From assembly GCF_009806575.1 (NCBI RefSeq), contig NZ_CP047095.1, forward strand, positions 1,158,001-1,222,000: DNA of 64,000 nucleotides, in the 5' to 3' direction. Positions 32,361 to 39,961 of this stretch are shown one piece after another (the stretch's first letter is position 1; the number at the start of each line of letters is the position of its first letter). A model generated the notes under the pieces. It had not been told where the DNA came from. It made no database searches and was given only the letters and a program-made list of their open reading frames with translations. Source of the stretch: Rossellomorea marisflavi. GTDB lineage: Bacteria > Bacillota > Bacilli > Bacillales > Bacillaceae_B. A program made the translations under genes and the position numbers.

Positions 32361-34100
32361 TTATAAAAGGGTATCCAGGAAGTGCTTGATCTCCTGGTAC
32401 ACCCTCACTTCATTGTCATGTTTCGAAAAGCTGTGGCCCTCGTCTTCCAACAGGATATACTGGACGGGGATGCCGCGCTCCCGTAGTCGTCCGACGATCC
32501 GCTCCGATTCCTCAGGGCGCACTCTCGCATCATTCTTCCCATGTATGACGAGCATAGGACCCGCCATATCCTCTACATACGTGATCGGGGACTCAGCAAC
32601 AAGCTTTTCGCGCTGCCCGACGGGATCACCCACCAGATTGACGATCAGAGGCTTCAGTGTCTCCGGAGCTGCCTCCACGTACGAAATCAAATCCGAGATC
32701 CCGAAGATATCAACGGTCCCACAGAAATACTCCGGATGTCTCCCGGACAGAAGAAGGCTCATGTAACCGCCATAGCTCCCGCCCATGACAGCGATCCTTC
32801 CTTTCTCCGCAAGTCCCTCGGCAATCAGCCAATCCATTCCCGCTACACAGTCAAGCCTTGGCCCGACGCCCCAATCACCTTCCACCCGTTTCATGAACGA
32901 AGCTCCATACCCGATGCTCCCGCGGAAATTGGGCGCGAAGATCGTGTACCCATTCAGCGCCAAGTACTGCAGGAGGGGGCGATCCTTCAACCGCTCCGAT
33001 TTCTGCGGTCCACCGTGCGGCCATAGAACCGTCACCCCGTTTGGCTCATCCGGGCGGTACAGGATTCCTTCAATCGTCAGTCCGTCGAAGGAGGGGTACT
33101 CGACAGCCACCGGTTTGACGCGCCTGTTTTTCACCCTATAGGGAGTCAGGCACTCCCAGCGTCCGTCCAAACTCAATCGATAGATAGCGTCGGAGGCATG
33201 GGCAGAGCTTCCCAGAAGGAGAAGGGTGCCGTCCGATGTTGCCTTCAGTTGATTGAAGGTATCGCAGGGAGTGTCGATTTCCGTGCAGTTGCCTTCCTCA
33301 GGGAAGTAACGGTGCAAATGATCCCGTACCCCTTTCTCAGTTGTCAGAATCAACTCATCCTGCACCTTGCAGAGCCCCTTCATGTTCTCGCCCTCAATCG
33401 AGAGTTCCTTCTGAAACAATCCGGTAGAAGGTTTATACGAAGCAAGGTAGTGAAAATCCTCACCATAGTCTGTCAGGAAGTAGATCCGGTCGCTTCCGTC
33501 GTATAGGACATCCTGGGTGCTGTATGGACCTACAGCATCCGGAATCATGGGCTGACTGACTCCGCCCACCATGCAGTAGGCCGGCACATGGGTATTGGAA
33601 TAGGATTCCGTGTACACATAAGACGATTCATCCGGCGCAACGGCTGCACACACGATGGGAGCCGCCTCCCCTTTTTGCACAAGGGTCTTTGTTCCAAGGA
33701 CAGCATCATAACGCATGACGTTAATGAGCGGATTCAAATGATTGGTGGAATAGTAAATATGCCCTTGTGAAGTGAAGCTGGCAAAGTAGGCCGTCGACCC
33801 GTTTTCCTCCTCGGATAAAGGAATGATTTGCCCGTCATCCATCACTCGATGCCACTGGTAGTGCTCATCTCCATCGCGATCGAATGTTGCAAGAACACTC
33901 CCATCATAGGTGAAGAGGCTGGAACTATGCTGATTTGAGAATGTGAGACGGTTGGTCTCAAGGGAGTCGAGGCAGAGTTCCCACACATCATAGGAACCTC
34001 CGTGGTTCGTACTGAACAGGATGCGCCTTCTTTCGTCATCAACCGTGAAACAGGCGATGGCGGTTGTTTGATACAGGTCTTGAATGGCTATCAATGTCAT
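32361..34100 (-). CDS. S9-family (prolyl oligopeptidase-type) serine peptidase
   Basis: A 579-residue protein with an N-terminal beta-propeller-like part (about 1-320) and a C-terminal alpha/beta-hydrolase domain. The nucleophile lies in VMGGSYGGYMSLLLSG (G-x-S-x-G). The acid is expected in VIHGKNDARV and the catalytic His in LEDEGHSFSKHDN. Such enzymes (acylaminoacyl- or dipeptidyl-peptidases) cleave short peptides in the cytosol; no signal peptide is present. ATG 34100 has GGAGAG upstream, while the longer in-frame extension lacks an SD. Confidence 0.9.
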   Translation of the reverse strand: MTLIAIQDLYQTTAIACFTVDDERRRILFSTNHGGSYDVWELCLDSLETNRLTFSNQHSSSLFTYDGSVLATFDRDGDEHYQWHRVMDDGQIIPLSEEENGSTAYFASFTSQGHIYYSTNHLNPLINVMRYDAVLGTKTLVQKGEAAPIVCAAVAPDESSYVYTESYSNTHVPAYCMVGGVSQPMIPDAVGPYSTQDVLYDGSDRIYFLTDYGEDFHYLASYKPSTGLFQKELSIEGENMKGLCKVQDELILTTEKGVRDHLHRYFPEEGNCTEIDTPCDTFNQLKATSDGTLLLLGSSAHASDAIYRLSLDGRWECLTPYRVKNRRVKPVAVEYPSFDGLTIEGILYRPDEPNGVTVLWPHGGPQKSERLKDRPLLQYLALNGYTIFAPNFRGSIGYGASFMKRVEGDWGVGPRLDCVAGMDWLIAEGLAEKGRIAVMGGSYGGYMSLLLSGRHPEYFCGTVDIFGISDLISYVEAAPETLKPLIVNLVGDPVGQREKLVAESPITYVEDMAGPMLVIHGKNDARVRPEESERIVGRLRERGIPVQYILLEDEGHSFSKHDNEVRVYQEIKHFLDTLL

Positions 34101-34315
34101 CACTCTCCATAATTGATCGTCATGGTAACAGGGACACCCTTCACCCCGCACTCATTCACGGTACGAGCTGTGATCGGATTGTGGCCTCTTTCCTATTGGA
34201 TGCATCACTCTTGTAAAAGAAGAGGGAGGAGCTAGAATCCTCCCGTAATGGGGATTCACTCCACGCAAGCTGGTTGCTTTATAGAAAAGGGTACCATGAA
34301 TGGAGGTGTATATAA

Positions 34316-34447
34316 ATGGGTTTTATGGAATTTAGAGTGAGGTTGTTTAGTGTGATGCCTCGTCGCTGTAGCTTAAAGGATGACACCGAGCAGTATAAAA
34401 CAGGAACGTACTACAGCAAATCGGTGAAGATCATTAAAAATCTATAG
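34316..34447 (+). CDS. Small basic protein, 43 aa, unknown
   Basis: A 43-codon frame (MGFMEFRVRLFSVMPRRCS ... SVKIIKNL) with a strong SD, GGAGGTG (34302-34308), 7 bases before the ATG. It is rich in basic residues and has no recognised family. It sits at the left border of the AT-rich toxin/immunity region and ends 35 bases before a large palindrome. The strong SD is the main support. Confidence 0.5.
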   Translation: MGFMEFRVRLFSVMPRRCSLKDDTEQYKTGTYYSKSVKIIKNL

Positions 34448-34482
34448 ATTGATTTTCGTGGTCTTCCCGGAGGATACAAGTA

Positions 34483-34546
34483 AAAAGCACAGGGGTCGTT
34501 CCTACTCTTCATGAAGGAAGAGAGACCGTTCCTGTGCTTTGCTTTT
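34483..34546. repeat. REP-like palindrome, also a likely bidirectional terminator
   Basis: AAAGCACAGG pairs with CCTGTGCTTT as an outer 10-bp stem, with inner GGTC/GACC and CTCTTC/GAAGAG pairings. Read on the minus strand, GCACAGGAACGGTC matches GCACAGGAACCGTC of the 54-kb REP-like element at 13 of 14 positions. Both sides end in T-rich tracts. Confidence 0.65.
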
Positions 34547-34639
34547 ATTCAGAACATGTATCTATCATTTAACTTACTAACATTCAGAAATAGGAGGTTT
34601 TTACATAAGCTAAGGAGTATGTGCTAACTCTTGCATGCT

Positions 34640-35575
34640 TTATTCTTTGTAAATCCCGTATATCCCATCCTGACTTAGTGAATTTTCTTTATTGCCGGAA
34701 CCTGCCTTCTTGATCACATAATGATCGTGCAAGTTAATGAAATACTGGCCTTTCGGTAGATCATCGTTTTCTTCAAAAGCAATCATGATGGGATTGTATA
34801 CTTCTTGTACCGGCTCTTTTTTTGGATCTTTCATATATAAGTTGATAGAGAACGTTAAATCATCAGGGTCAAACAGTTCTTCTTGATAGGCGTCAGTCAA
34901 TTCTTCTTTTGAAGCGTCGGGATTTTTCATGTATAGATCATAAACCGGCTGAATGGCTTCATCATTGGAGGAGGCCTGGACAAAATAATAGGGAGTTTCG
35001 TAGGCATTTCCACCTACATTTTCTATCGATTCGACAGTGGTTCCAACTACCTCGCCACTCGAGTTTATAATCTCTTCGATTTGTTTATCCAATACTTTGA
35101 ATTCATCTTCTTTTATATAAGCATATAGAGCGGTTCTCAACCCTTTCTCTACTTCACCTTCCAAGGTCCAGACGCTTTCTGTTTTGACTCGTTTTTCACT
35201 AAAGTCAATTGGGACAATCGCGGTGGAATAAAAATGTAGTCGTCCTTTTGATTCGAAGAAGACCGTGTAACCGCCTTGATTACCTACCAAATTGTGAACC
35301 TCTATATCCGTTTTATATTCTTTTTTAATATAATCTTTGGTTGCCTTTATTACTTCTTCTTTGTATTGATCTTCGGCTTTTTCTGCTTTCCCCCCATAAG
35401 GAAGGAAATATCCGTCTCCAGTATAGGTTAAGACACTTTCATAAAAATCGCTGGGCCGATCCTTTACACCGTCTTCGTTTTCAGTCTGTGGTGAATCGTT
35501 TGAAAGGAGGTTTAAGCATCCTCCTAAAAATAGGATGGGGGCGAGACATAATAGCGTGATTCGTTTACCTATCAT
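34640..35575 (-). CDS. DUF1672 lipoprotein (TilA-like putative immunity protein, copy 3)
   Basis: A 311-residue lipoprotein: signal MIGKRITLLCLAPILFLGGC, lipobox LGGC. The mature part carries the DUF1672 blocks seen in all three copies: ESVLTYTGDGY, ATKDYIKKEYKTDIEVHN, FESKGRLHFYSTAIVPIDF, LYAYIKEDEFKVLDK, NVGGNAYETPYYFV and PVYDLYMKNPDASKEEL. In S. aureus, DUF1672 lipoproteins (TilA) protect against the type VII-secreted lipase TslA; the same role is inferred here from the adjacent lipase gene. ATG 35575 follows GGAGG. It is the last gene of the minus-strand cluster, 46 bases after copy 2. Confidence 0.88.
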   Translation of the reverse strand: MIGKRITLLCLAPILFLGGCLNLLSNDSPQTENEDGVKDRPSDFYESVLTYTGDGYFLPYGGKAEKAEDQYKEEVIKATKDYIKKEYKTDIEVHNLVGNQGGYTVFFESKGRLHFYSTAIVPIDFSEKRVKTESVWTLEGEVEKGLRTALYAYIKEDEFKVLDKQIEEIINSSGEVVGTTVESIENVGGNAYETPYYFVQASSNDEAIQPVYDLYMKNPDASKEELTDAYQEELFDPDDLTFSINLYMKDPKKEPVQEVYNPIMIAFEENDDLPKGQYFINLHDHYVIKKAGSGNKENSLSQDGIYGIYKE

Positions 35576-35621
35576 TTTATTGAATTCCTCCAATCAATTA
35601 AGGGTTAGTAAAAAGCGCATA

Positions 35622-36548
35622 TCATTCTATGATAATCTCTTCCTGCTTGGAGCCAAGGCTTCTGTTATCGATTGTTCCCTTTTCTTTTTGATTATCATTA
35701 AGGGTGATGATGTAATGTCCTTTCGGCAGTTGATTTCCGGTTTTAATCTTATCCATTATTAGACGGAAGGTCTTTTCGTCAGGTTCAGTATCTGGTTCTT
35801 TCATGAACAACTGAATGTGAATCTCGATATTCTCAGGATCGAAGTCCTCTGATTTAAATACCTCTAACAGTTCTGCTTTAGTGGAGGAAGGAGAATCTAA
35901 ATATTTTTGATAAACGGGGATAAGTGCTTCATCTGAATTTAAATAATTCGTGTAGTAATAAGGAGTCATGTATCCCTGTCTACCTATGTTTTGGATCAAT
36001 TCCTTCCTGATTCCCACCACATCATTTTCTTCAGCTACCTCACCCAAAAGTCCATCCAACTCACTGAATTGTTCTTCATGCATATAAGCGTATAGTGATG
36101 CCTTCATAGCGTTATCCAGAAGGTCATCATAATATTTCACTTTATCTCCCAGAACTCTCTTGTTAATCAGATCGATCGGTATCCTGACTTCTGAGAAGAA
36201 ATGGATATGATCCTTTGTTTCAAAGTAAACGGTCACCCCGTCAATGTTAGTAAGAATATTGTGTACTTGGATGTCTAAGTGGAAGTTCTTCTTTATGTAA
36301 TCCTTTGTTGCTTGAATGATTTCATCTCGTAATTCTTCTGTGATGTCTTCCGTTTCCTGTGCATCATACGCTTTGTAATCTTCCGCAGTGTACGTTAATA
36401 CGTCCTCGTTTCGTTCTTTTCTTTCTTTCTCTAATTTCTTTTTATGCTCTTCGATTTCCTTGGGTGTTGTAGTTGAGATTGGAATACAACCATTTAGAAG
36501 AAGAGGGATTAAAACAATTAGCAATGCATGTTTTTTGTATGTCTTCAA
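35622..36548 (-). CDS. DUF1672 lipoprotein (TilA-like putative immunity protein, copy 2, divergent)
   Basis: A 308-residue lipoprotein with signal peptide LKTYKKHALLIVLIPLLLNGC, lipobox LNGC. It keeps the DUF1672 blocks but is the most divergent copy: DVLTYTAEDY, ATKDYIKKNFHLDIQVHN, ETKDHIHFFSEVRIPIDL, LYAYMHEEQFSELD, YMTPYYYTNYLNSDEALIPVYQKYL. The TTG at 36548 lies 7 bases behind GGAGGG; an ATG 15 bases earlier overlaps that SD. A terminator separates it from the lipase gene, so it may have its own promoter. A role as an extra immunity protein against variant toxins is inferred. Confidence 0.87.
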   Translation of the reverse strand: MKTYKKHALLIVLIPLLLNGCIPISTTTPKEIEEHKKKLEKERKERNEDVLTYTAEDYKAYDAQETEDITEELRDEIIQATKDYIKKNFHLDIQVHNILTNIDGVTVYFETKDHIHFFSEVRIPIDLINKRVLGDKVKYYDDLLDNAMKASLYAYMHEEQFSELDGLLGEVAEENDVVGIRKELIQNIGRQGYMTPYYYTNYLNSDEALIPVYQKYLDSPSSTKAELLEVFKSEDFDPENIEIHIQLFMKEPDTEPDEKTFRLIMDKIKTGNQLPKGHYIITLNDNQKEKGTIDNRSLGSKQEEIIIE

Positions 36549-36563
36549 TGGATAACCCTCCAT

Positions 36564-36805
36564 TTGTTAAGGTGTTTATCTTTCATTACTGAAAACTATT
36601 CGAAATTAATTTGCATTTTTTAGAAAAATAATAAGTGGAATTTGCTTGATAGGATAGTGTCACTTACATTAGTGTTTAAATCCTCTTATCTTTTCTAGTA
36701 GTATAGTTGAACACTTTAGATATTCATTTCATAACAAAAAATATCCACTAATATGAAAGTTAAAAAGGAAGCTCTTCAGGGGAAAGTGTAATTTTATCAA
36801 ATCAG
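36564..36805 (-). other. AT-rich gap between lipase terminator and second DUF1672 gene
   Basis: About 240 bases without a convincing reading frame, rich in A/T. It probably contains the promoter of the two downstream DUF1672 genes, but no box pair stands out. No small helical-hairpin gene of the kind that partners staphylococcal TslA could be found in it. Confidence 0.5.
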
Positions 36806-36840
36806 TTAAAAAAGAAAGGATATCATTAGAATAGATATCC
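36806..36840 (-). terminator. Intrinsic terminator of the DUF1672-lipase operon
   Basis: On the minus strand GGATATC (36834-36840) pairs with GATATCC (36818-36824), followed by TTTCTTTTTT. Confidence 0.8.
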
Positions 36841-36913
36841 CTTCTTCTGTTTCATTATAAATACATTTATTCAATTTAATTACATTAAGTAGTCGTAAGA
36901 AACCACATTCGAA

Positions 36914-39007
36914 CTAACTGAATGTAATCCGTTCAATTTGTTCGCGAACGGTTTCTAGATCGGCTTTTACCTTTTGGGAAGTATCGTGAAGTGCAGTGAT
37001 GGAATTGCCCTTATGTTCACTAAGTTGATAGATTATATCTTCGAAGAGCAATTCTAATTCTCCATGTAGGGAAGAAGATACTCCGTTTAAAATGTTGATC
37101 TCAGCTAGTTTAAATTGATCCAAAATTGCATTTTGAAGGAAGGGTTTAAATTCATTCACAATGTTAGGGAAACCAAAGAATACTCTAGTTAGTCCATCTC
37201 TAACTCCACCCAGTGTTCCAGTAATCTCCTCAAGCGGGGCGATTGCTGACTCAGCTATAGCATTCACTTTATTTGCAAGATTCGAGTATAGCCCCAAGAA
37301 ATCCATAGGAATGGCGACTGAGTCTATTTTAGCTTTTGACTTAATTTGCAGGATTGTTGCTTCAAGGGACCCTTCTAGTGCTGAAACAATTCCTATTAGG
37401 GTTCCTACTACTGCTTGGATAACGTTATTTCCAAAAGCAGTGAGAATTGCGATGCTTTCATCGAGAATCAGATCACCTAATTTCATACCAACTAGCATAT
37501 GGTCTGATTCCGTTAACGGTTCCCCGGAACTATTCAGCATCGAAGGAGCGACTGCAAGTAATGAGCCCTTATTTGTGATTGAGTCAGCCAAATTTTTATC
37601 ACGCATGACCATCTCTGCCCTTACGAAATTTGTTTTAAAGTTAAACAGTTCAATATGCTTTGACACTTTCTCAATATTAAGGTTGACGATTTTGTAATGT
37701 GCGTTTAAATCATTTACAAACACATCTTCTACAACCTGTTTCCCACCGCTTAAAAGTGTGGGTATTAAGTGCTCGCTCAATTGCTTGAAACCTTGTAGTA
37801 GATCTACTATATTCTCTTTGAATTGAGAGAGCAACTCACGTGGGGGTTCAAATATATTAGCTACATTTAGGTCAATGTTGATAATATGCTCTACTAGCTC
37901 AAGCGGGGGAGAGTCCAGTACCTTATTTATGGACCTGACAAAGGATTCTGCTTTACCCAATAGGGCGATCCAAATGTCCAACTCCAATAGGATAGGAGCA
38001 GCTAAGGTACTAATGCCTTTGAACAAGGGATGACTGAAATGTGACTCAGTAATTTCTTCAATTTTATCTTGAAGTTCATTCAATCGGGCAGAGAACCTTT
38101 CTCCTTCTTGTTCTACTAGTAATTTGGACTTATTCATATAACTATCTATACTTGTATACTTACCATGAACTGACAAATCATCCCCGATCAAAGCATTTGA
38201 GAGTTTGTCAAGAGCCTCAGGGGTAATATCGATGCGCTCAGTGTTTCCGCTGTACAGCGGTTCTCCCGTCCAGATACTGCTAATGATATGGTCATCTGCT
38301 GATACATTTATTTTCTCACCTGCGACGACATAAGGTTTATTGTTCCCATAATAACCAGTATGGAATGGACCGATGTTGTTGAATTGAAGACCGGCATAAG
38401 GTGCTCCAAAAGAAATATCCCTTCGTTCTCCGGGAATTCGATCATCGAGCCCTAATGAAATCAGGCCTTTAGTCAACACATCATTACTCCCGAAATAGTT
38501 CACTATATTCGAATACTCTCTATTTGGATCCATTTTTCCTTTGGGTAATAGTGCAGGATTAAGGGTGACACATCTTATATCATCTTCTGGATGTTCTACT
38601 ACTACATTGGAGGCAAGAGGACCGCCAAGAGAGTTTCCTGCCACATAGGATACTCCGCCCTCATGTTCATACCTTTCTTTCATTTCAACATAGTATTCTT
38701 CTGCAGCATCAAGTTGCTCTACGTCTAAATCACTAAGGAGTTGAGCATCGGCTTTAAGATCTTGTTTTCCATACTTTGCATCGGCTTGAGTACCTTGATA
38801 AATTACTGAGATTTCCCCTGTTTCAAGGCATTTAACTGTCATCGCATCAAGGCCACTAGGGTGGTCATATCTGGTATCTAATACCCGGAATGTTTTCCCA
38901 TTTACTTCTAATGGATCATCATAAATTTGAGGATTTTGGTAAACGTGTAAGCCTGCTAATTCGACTAGATCCGGATCGGTTACCTTCTCATTAATTTTAT
39001 TAGTCAA
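36914..39007 (-). CDS. TslA-like lipase toxin with C-terminal LXG-like helical domain (putative type VII substrate)
   Basis: A 697-residue protein without signal peptide. Residues 1-270 form an alpha/beta-hydrolase lipase domain with nucleophile elbow YVAGNSLGGPLAS, a likely acid in VNYFGSNDVLTKG and a likely catalytic His in NIGPFHTGYYGNN. From about 290 to the end it is almost wholly helical (SYMNKSKLLVEQEGERFSARLNEL; QFKENIVDLLQGFKQLSEHL; KADLETVREQIERI), like LXG-type secretion domains. Toxin in front and targeting domain behind is the reverse order described for S. aureus TslA, a type VII-secreted lipase. TTG 39007 follows AAAGGTAG, which overlaps the upstream DUF1672 stop (6-base gap), so the two are translationally coupled. 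No secretion or partner genes are adjacent. Confidence 0.82.
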   Translation of the reverse strand: MTNKINEKVTDPDLVELAGLHVYQNPQIYDDPLEVNGKTFRVLDTRYDHPSGLDAMTVKCLETGEISVIYQGTQADAKYGKQDLKADAQLLSDLDVEQLDAAEEYYVEMKERYEHEGGVSYVAGNSLGGPLASNVVVEHPEDDIRCVTLNPALLPKGKMDPNREYSNIVNYFGSNDVLTKGLISLGLDDRIPGERRDISFGAPYAGLQFNNIGPFHTGYYGNNKPYVVAGEKINVSADDHIISSIWTGEPLYSGNTERIDITPEALDKLSNALIGDDLSVHGKYTSIDSYMNKSKLLVEQEGERFSARLNELQDKIEEITESHFSHPLFKGISTLAAPILLELDIWIALLGKAESFVRSINKVLDSPPLELVEHIINIDLNVANIFEPPRELLSQFKENIVDLLQGFKQLSEHLIPTLLSGGKQVVEDVFVNDLNAHYKIVNLNIEKVSKHIELFNFKTNFVRAEMVMRDKNLADSITNKGSLLAVAPSMLNSSGEPLTESDHMLVGMKLGDLILDESIAILTAFGNNVIQAVVGTLIGIVSALEGSLEATILQIKSKAKIDSVAIPMDFLGLYSNLANKVNAIAESAIAPLEEITGTLGGVRDGLTRVFFGFPNIVNEFKPFLQNAILDQFKLAEINILNGVSSSLHGELELLFEDIIYQLSEHKGNSITALHDTSQKVKADLETVREQIERITFS

Positions 39008-39013
39008 ATTAAT

Positions 39014-39961
39014 CTACCTTTCATAATCTTTTAATATAGGAGTAGAATATTTAATAGAATTCATTTTTAAGCCTGTACCTTTATTTTTTTGAACATAGTT
39101 ATCATTTAAGAAGATCTCATATGTTCCTTTGGGTAAATTATTGTTTTCTTTTACAAACTCCTCAATTTTATTGAATGCATCTTGATCAGGCTCTGCTTTT
39201 TCCTTTTTCATAAAGCCTTGAATTGTAATGAAAGCATAGTTTGGATCAAATTTACTTGTGTCATATGCCTTCACAAGTTCTTCTTTAGAAGCTTTTGGGT
39301 TTTCCAGATAGAGGTCATACACAGGCTTCATTGCCATGTCAAGTTTGGTCGATGTAACATGGTAAAAAGGGGTAGAATAACCGTTACCGCCAACATTCTT
39401 TAAAGATTCAAGAGAAATGCCAACTATATCATGAGTCTTTGCTACAGATTCAATTTCTTTATCTAATTCTTTAAACGCATCCTCTTTAATGTATGCGTAA
39501 AGGGATCCACGTATGGAATTTTCAATCCTCCCCTCTAATGTCCACACATTATCTGAAAGTATTTTTTTGTCTTCAGTATCGATTGGAACAATGGCTGTAG
39601 AATAAAAATGCAAGCGGCCAGTCGTTTCAAAGAATACAGTAACACCATCCTGATTTCCGACCATATTATGGACTTCAATATCGATGTTATACTCTTTCTT
39701 CAAATAATCCTTAGTCGCCTTTACTACTTCATCCTTATGCTCTTTAGCTATCTTTTCGTTTTCTTCTCCTCCAGGTAGGTCATACCCCTCACCAGTATAG
39801 GTAAGTACGCTTTCAAACTTATCTGCAGGTCTAGCGTTTATATCCTGGTCCGTCTCCGTCTTCTTCGCTTCTGATTTTTTTCCGCTGTCCACTCCAAAAC
39901 AACCTCCTAATAATAATGAGATGCTTATACCACATACGAACAGTTTCCATTTATGTTTCAT
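39014..39961 (-). CDS. DUF1672 lipoprotein (TilA-like putative immunity protein, copy 1)
   Basis: A 315-residue lipoprotein with signal peptide MKHKWKLFVCGISISLLLGGC and lipobox LGGC. It shows the DUF1672 blocks ESVLTYTGEGY, ATKDYLKKEYNIDIEVHN, FETTGRLHFYSTAIVPIDT, LYAYIKEDAFKELDK, NVGGNGYSTPFYHV and PVYDLYLENPKASKEEL, and is closest to copy 3. It is the first gene of the operon, immediately ahead of the lipase gene, as expected for immunity made before the toxin. AGGAGG lies 11 bases before the ATG. Membrane-anchored on the outer face, it could neutralise lipase arriving from sibling cells; the function is inferred from the staphylococcal system. Confidence 0.9.
   Translation of the reverse strand: MKHKWKLFVCGISISLLLGGCFGVDSGKKSEAKKTETDQDINARPADKFESVLTYTGEGYDLPGGEENEKIAKEHKDEVVKATKDYLKKEYNIDIEVHNMVGNQDGVTVFFETTGRLHFYSTAIVPIDTEDKKILSDNVWTLEGRIENSIRGSLYAYIKEDAFKELDKEIESVAKTHDIVGISLESLKNVGGNGYSTPFYHVTSTKLDMAMKPVYDLYLENPKASKEELVKAYDTSKFDPNYAFITIQGFMKKEKAEPDQDAFNKIEEFVKENNNLPKGTYEIFLNDNYVQKNKGTGLKMNSIKYSTPILKDYER

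Follow-up and report, generated by a model that had tools for sequence, protein, structure and literature searches.

The lipase toxin TslA of Staphylococcus aureus carries its lipase domain first and its helical domain, which is LXG-like with a G-X-L turn, last. As described by Garrett et al. in 2023 (PMC10730906), its immunity protein TilA is a DUF576 lipoprotein encoded upstream, at the toxin-domain end, and two small helical partners, Tla1 and Tla2, are encoded directly behind the toxin; extra immunity copies and a variable toxin N terminus also belong to this Tsl1 (TslA-TilA-TlaA1-TlaA2) system. Reverse lipases encoded at T7SSe and T7SSg type VII secretion system (T7SS) loci have likewise been published (PMC11217815). 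Here, we describe a locus on the minus strand of a 64,000-nucleotide stretch of a Rossellomorea marisflavi genome (the window), at positions 34640..39961, that very probably encodes a reverse lipase toxin linked to type VII secretion, together with immunity proteins of the DUF1672 family. Its features, in order of transcription, are as follows.

39014..39961, minus strand: proposed cognate immunity lipoprotein of the DUF1672 family, with codon 39899-39901 for the lipobox Cys21 (PF07901, E = 3.9e-25)
36914..39007, minus strand: SA1320-family protein of 697 amino acids (aa), TTG start, proposed type VII-exported reverse-order lipase toxin (NF047388 and AlphaFold model)
38211..39007, minus strand: N-terminal lipase domain, toxin residues 1-266, class 3 lipase fold with proposed triad
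38630-38632, 38480-38482, and 38360-38362, minus strand: codons of the proposed triad residues S126, D176, and H216
36917..38210, minus strand: all-helical C-terminal domain, toxin residues 267-697, proposed targeting domain (model secondary structure; identity to genomes L070 and L095)
38300..39900, minus strand: region of exchange, covering the mature part of the immunity protein and roughly toxin residues 1-240 (DNA comparison with L070)
36564..36913, minus strand: 350-bp gap behind the toxin gene, with no open reading frame (ORF) of more than 25 aa on the toxin strand and no Tla/Lap-like partner gene
35622..36563, minus strand: DUF1672 lipoprotein, second copy, proposed extra immunity against other variants (PF07901, E = 1e-24)
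34640..35593, minus strand: DUF1672 lipoprotein, third copy (PF07901, E = 2.1e-19)

All four ORFs of the block were confirmed, with the TTG start of the toxin gene lying 6 bp past the stop codon of the upstream DUF1672 gene. The block has a G+C content of 37.3%, compared with 51.4% and 49.8% on its two sides. A preliminary description of this DNA had proposed this gene layout, the coupling of the toxin gene behind a DUF1672 gene, the AT-rich character of the block, and a signal-less N-terminal lipase with a long helical C terminus; all of these agree with our results. The toxin scored 434.7 bits against the NCBIfam model of the SA1320 family (NF047388; curated cutoff, 230) and is therefore a member of that family rather than an ORF arising by chance; in R. 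marisflavi, the closest named relative found, the toxin is 87% identical. In the AlphaFold model (mean predicted local distance difference test score, 86; predicted template modeling score, 0.77), fold comparison placed a class 3 lipase fold at the N terminus, and helices follow in the model between residues 263 and 693; this helical C-terminal domain gave no secure fold match. S126 lies in the GNSLGG elbow, and S126, D176, and H216 are conserved in 27/27 relatives found by profile, which is the fair count, as S126 was part of the retrieval pattern for our named set of 63 toxin frames and is present in 63/63 by construction. We propose Ser126-Asp176-His216 as the predicted catalytic triad. No hydrophobic N terminus or Sec signal was seen by eye. 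The window domain search was listed to an E value of ≤10, with filters that drop most matches above about 0.1, and within these limits it gave no match of the toxin to the model of the N-terminal LXG domain (PF04740), whose place is taken here by the lipase fold, and no match of the three lipoproteins to DUF576; the toxin is thus not placed among LXG toxins.

The three lipoproteins all exceeded the PF07901 gathering cutoff of 25 bits (70.4, 87.7, and 89.1 bits), as the preliminary description had expected of a DUF1672 profile search. Among 139 DUF1672 sequences collected, the lipobox Cys21 was invariant in the 63 that were aligned. The predicted fold of the 39014-39961 product matches PDB 4QPV, the DUF1672 protein SAV1486, although the two are only 14% identical; the 4QPV entry dates from 2014 and bears a title that gives the family and no function, and S. 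aureus lipoproteins with DUF1672 appear in a published list as being of unknown function (PMC5020093). TilA had been equated with DUF1672 in the preliminary description, which is incorrect, since TilA is a DUF576 protein and DUF1672 does not occur in the main text of PMC10730906. The claim of a homologous TslA/TilA system therefore holds for the design but not for the family. The domain order, the Ser-Asp-His lipase at the N terminus (here by sequence and model), the upstream immunity gene at the toxin-domain end, the extra immunity copies, and the variable N terminus are all shared with Tsl1. In contrast, the immunity family differs, the toxin is some 250 residues longer than TslA (about 450 aa, a length estimated from the frameshift description in PMC10730906), and no Tla1- or Tla2-like gene was found in the 350-bp gap; likewise, no ORF cluster recurred in more than 6/62 related loci surveyed for partner genes. 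With DUF1672 in place of DUF576 and no partners found, this is a separate pair built on the same plan rather than TslA/TilA itself.

It is quite unlikely that the locus is an ordinary, merely diverged member of the Tsl1 (TslA/TilA/Tla1/Tla2) family, even though domain order, gene order, and lipase class are those of Tsl1 and the N-terminal domain profile is related to lipases encoded near EssC in other genomes. For nine such lipases (alignment A4, which includes those of L075, L089, and L090 and leaves out the L093 lipase, all described below), comparison with the SA1320 lipase domain gave an hhalign probability of 96% (E = 1e-9), but nothing beyond the lipase domain and the first helices was aligned. 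These lipases are 466 to 532 aa long and lie near EssC, compared with 697 aa for the toxin here. Besides the absence of DUF576 matches and partner genes, the length of the C-terminal part (about 430 residues) and the toxin's membership in its own curated family argue against a diverged Tsl1 member. The locus is an analogous, distantly related system, set apart from TslA by its protein families and by the published description.

The toxin and DUF1672 genes are paired well beyond this genome. We surveyed 397 genomes of the order, with SA1320 over the cutoff in 37, DUF1672 in 43, and EssC in 136; DUF1672 was present in 36/37 SA1320 genomes. The host genome has a single SA1320 match and three DUF1672 genes, all at this locus. 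Among toxin frames longer than 600 aa in the named set, 60/63 had a DUF1672-like gene immediately upstream, with gaps of -29 to 47 bp. Of the three remaining frames, two start close to a contig end (79 and 152 bases away), while the third (from Cellulomonas) has a DUF1672-like gene after all, hidden by an over-long start. Further DUF1672 copies of more than 200 aa were found in 34/62 loci within the stretch examined. Seven genomes had DUF1672 without an over-cutoff toxin—four of them (G151, G161, G282, and G290) hold toxin fragments, and the other three have at most a weak match—which is the pattern expected of spare or left-over immunity genes. In another family of the class, two genomes (L179 and L180) encode SA1320-like proteins of 827 to 860 aa over the cutoff, and no DUF1672-like gene was found beside them in the fetched stretch.

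Lipases often have helper proteins. A DUF1672 protein adjoining the lipase in nearly all loci could thus be a folding helper or chaperone of a lipase secreted, or released by lysis, for nutrition or membrane remodeling. We consider this very unlikely, given the further DUF1672 copies, the seven genomes with DUF1672 but no over-cutoff toxin (four of them with toxin fragments), and the link to EssC and the displaced N-terminal stubs described below. The lipase domain and its neighbor also diverge together among close relatives, and a helper need not vary in this way.

The preliminary description had made the presence of type VII genes in the host a test of its proposal, and a type VIIb (T7SSb) locus is present, with WXG100, YukD, EssB, EssC, and EsaA over the cutoffs of their models and an open frame at the EssA position. 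EssC was found in 34/37 SA1320 genomes compared with 102/360 others (P = 2e-14). Two of these 34 (G033 and G354) have EssC in pieces, and the toxin copies of G033 are incomplete too. Because related genomes are not independent, we also permuted EssC within the 16 families holding SA1320 (203 genomes, including all 37 positives); the 34 co-occurrences observed were reached in 0/20,000 permutations (mean, 20.3; maximum, 31). Within the host's own genus, EssC was present in 7/7 SA1320 genomes and 1/9 others. When EssC was sorted by score into three kinds (our own grouping), all 34 genomes had the highest-scoring kind, the two in-pieces cases being placed by hand, and SA1320 was absent from genomes having only one of the other two kinds (0/24 and 0/6). 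Of the three SA1320 genomes without EssC, the toxin is broken in G014 and G347. The third, Heyndrickxia coagulans 36D1 (G216), has no EssC over the cutoff and retains an open toxin frame, but its adjacent DUF1672 gene is split (L154:5104-8079), as expected if an unexported toxin is harmless.

A toxin-immunity pair that leaves the cell by a route other than type VII is an unlikely explanation of these results. The open frame of H. coagulans, the distance of the locus from the T7SS locus, the lack of partner genes, and the insecure fold match of the C-terminal domain would all be compatible with it. The co-occurrence with EssC, which holds inside families, and the lack of a visible Sec signal argue instead for type VII export, and the split immunity gene of H. 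coagulans weakens the one exception with an open toxin frame.

Comparison with close relatives points to exchange of the toxin tip together with its immunity gene. Relative to the sister genome L070, one of the two nearest relatives, amino acid identity is 99% for the C-terminal domain but 75% for the lipase domain and 57% for the adjacent DUF1672 protein, with 98% and 87% for the second and third DUF1672 proteins. The corresponding values for the other, R. marisflavi L095, are 98% (C-terminal domain), 70% (lipase domain), and 56% (adjacent DUF1672). At the DNA level, identity to L070 falls to 46 to 82% in 50-base windows between about positions 38,300 and 39,900, compared with mostly 94 to 100% in 200-base windows on either side. 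The limits of this block are just past the immunity signal peptide and at about toxin residue 240. Identity to R. marisflavi L069 drops over the same interval, with a more gradual upstream boundary. One contiguous DNA block, comprising the mature immunity protein and the toxin N terminus, thus appears to have been swapped. Left of about position 36,600 (32361-36600 of the window), L069 is at background identity only, and the second and third DUF1672 genes and the S9 peptidase of the window have no counterpart at this position there.

The same pattern recurs across a wider set of 61 sequences (1,830 pairs, which are not independent). C-terminal domains were at least 93% identical in 26 pairs. 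In 18 of these, lipase domains were less than 85% identical, with a mean cognate DUF1672 identity of 0.60, compared with 0.92 in the other 8; across the 26 pairs, again not independent, DUF1672 identity correlated at 0.88 with lipase identity and at -0.29 with C-terminal domain identity. The opposite combination (lipase domain, ≥0.90; C-terminal domain, <0.85) occurred in two pairs. When all 61 sequences are considered, the immunity protein is tied to the two domains to a similar degree (partial Mantel, 0.35 and 0.30), and mean conservation is higher for lipase domains (0.51) than for C-terminal domains (0.39). As judged from these alignments, the C-terminal domain drifts over the long term, and the lipase block is swapped over the short term. 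Variability, followed in detail in nine pairs, suggests toxin residues about 1 to 130 and the C-terminal half of DUF1672 as a candidate interface.

Toxin remnants were found outside the main gene in 16/62 loci, always upstream. They match toxin residues within 1-235, except for a small piece in L141 that matches residues 270-332, and the end of a whole or partial DUF1672 gene lies no more than 100 bp ahead of a remnant in 13/16 loci and no more than 250 bp ahead in 14/16. Displaced partial toxins beside immunity genes are also known from Rhs and LXG toxins, as orphan toxin-tip modules; the tspA fragment left over from the LXG toxin TspA is described as matching the 3' end of its gene (PMC9484751). 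The remnants here represent the 5' end and lie upstream, as would be expected from the reversed domain order. Among close relatives, the sequences thus combine the features of a polymorphic toxin system, namely, a constant targeting part, covarying toxin and immunity regions, spare immunity copies, and displaced modules.

The proposed reading is thus supported computationally by the fold, the conserved triad, the gene order, the co-occurrence with EssC, the co-divergence of lipase domain and neighbor among close relatives, and the block exchange. We infer export, toxicity, substrate, binding, and neutralization as follows. The SA1320-family toxin would be made without a Sec signal and exported by the host type VIIb system, which would recognize its C-terminal helical domain. 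Its class 3 lipase domain would then attack the membrane lipids of neighboring cells from outside. The DUF1672 lipoprotein encoded upstream may bind the lipase domain and shield the producer, while the two further copies may guard against variants made by others. The preliminary description placed immunity lipoproteins on the "outer membrane face"; its antibacterial logic is supported and the adjacent lipoprotein does remain the likely immunity protein, but the host is a monoderm member of the Bacillales, so only the outer face of the cytoplasmic membrane can be meant. New specificities would arise when one contiguous DNA block is replaced by recombination, with the signal-peptide region of the immunity gene and the C-terminal domain of the toxin, both conserved, as its two flanks.

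Other reverse lipases were encountered near EssC. We fetched twenty EssC neighborhoods (19 with the third EssC kind and one, L093, with the host's kind), which are no survey because they were picked for weak SA1320 matches; 10/20 contained a lipase-domain match to our own profile (E ≤ 1e-3). We read four cassettes (L075:9011-12183, L089:3583-7004, L090:5131-8486, and L093:8115-11015), each with a lipoprotein-like gene, small genes close by, and a lipase of 468 to 532 aa that looks helical at its end. The lipase genes of L075, L089, and L090 are preceded by a gene for a different lipoprotein and have two WXG100-like genes and one 63-aa gene in their vicinity; the L093 lipoprotein matches DUF3952. 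Like the T7SSe and T7SSg reverse lipases (PMC11217815), these are encoded with a T7SS.

A more distant pair occurs in Cellulomonas denverensis (L167:4985-7959), where a DUF1672-like lipoprotein frame (E = 3e-13 with our own profile; no DUF1672 match in Pfam) accompanies an SA1320-like toxin that, at 172.9 bits, scores below the cutoff of 230. The pair lies between an M15-type peptidase-like frame and prfB-ftsE-ftsX (named by eye; housekeeping-looking) and is native in composition, as the toxin gene has a G+C content of 0.72 and a third-position G+C content of 0.94. It was found in 1/198 genomes of its order and was probably acquired. The genome has two EccCa matches over the cutoff and no Firmicute-kind EssC over the cutoff. 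Export of reverse substrates by T7SSa was stated to be unknown in 2024 (PMC11217815), and we regard L167 as a lead on T7SSa use of reverse toxins, not as proof. A tentative and rather doubtful extension is that the C-terminal domain of about 430 residues unites in one chain the helices supplied to TslA by TlaA1 and TlaA2, forming a partner-free export signal, and that reverse toxins can also be used by actinobacterial T7SSa.

The R. marisflavi block is bordered by ordinary-looking genes, for an S9 peptidase at one end and for a sensor kinase-response regulator pair at the other.

Reverse lipases as a kind were already known, and the pairing of SA1320 with DUF1672 is the part that will be unfamiliar to specialists. 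It offers a concrete, testable function for two conserved families that have had none. It also indicates a greater variety of reverse type VII lipases, possibly including partner-free ones, than the single characterized family shows, as well as a mirror-image form of toxin-tip exchange in which the swapped module lies at the 5' end.
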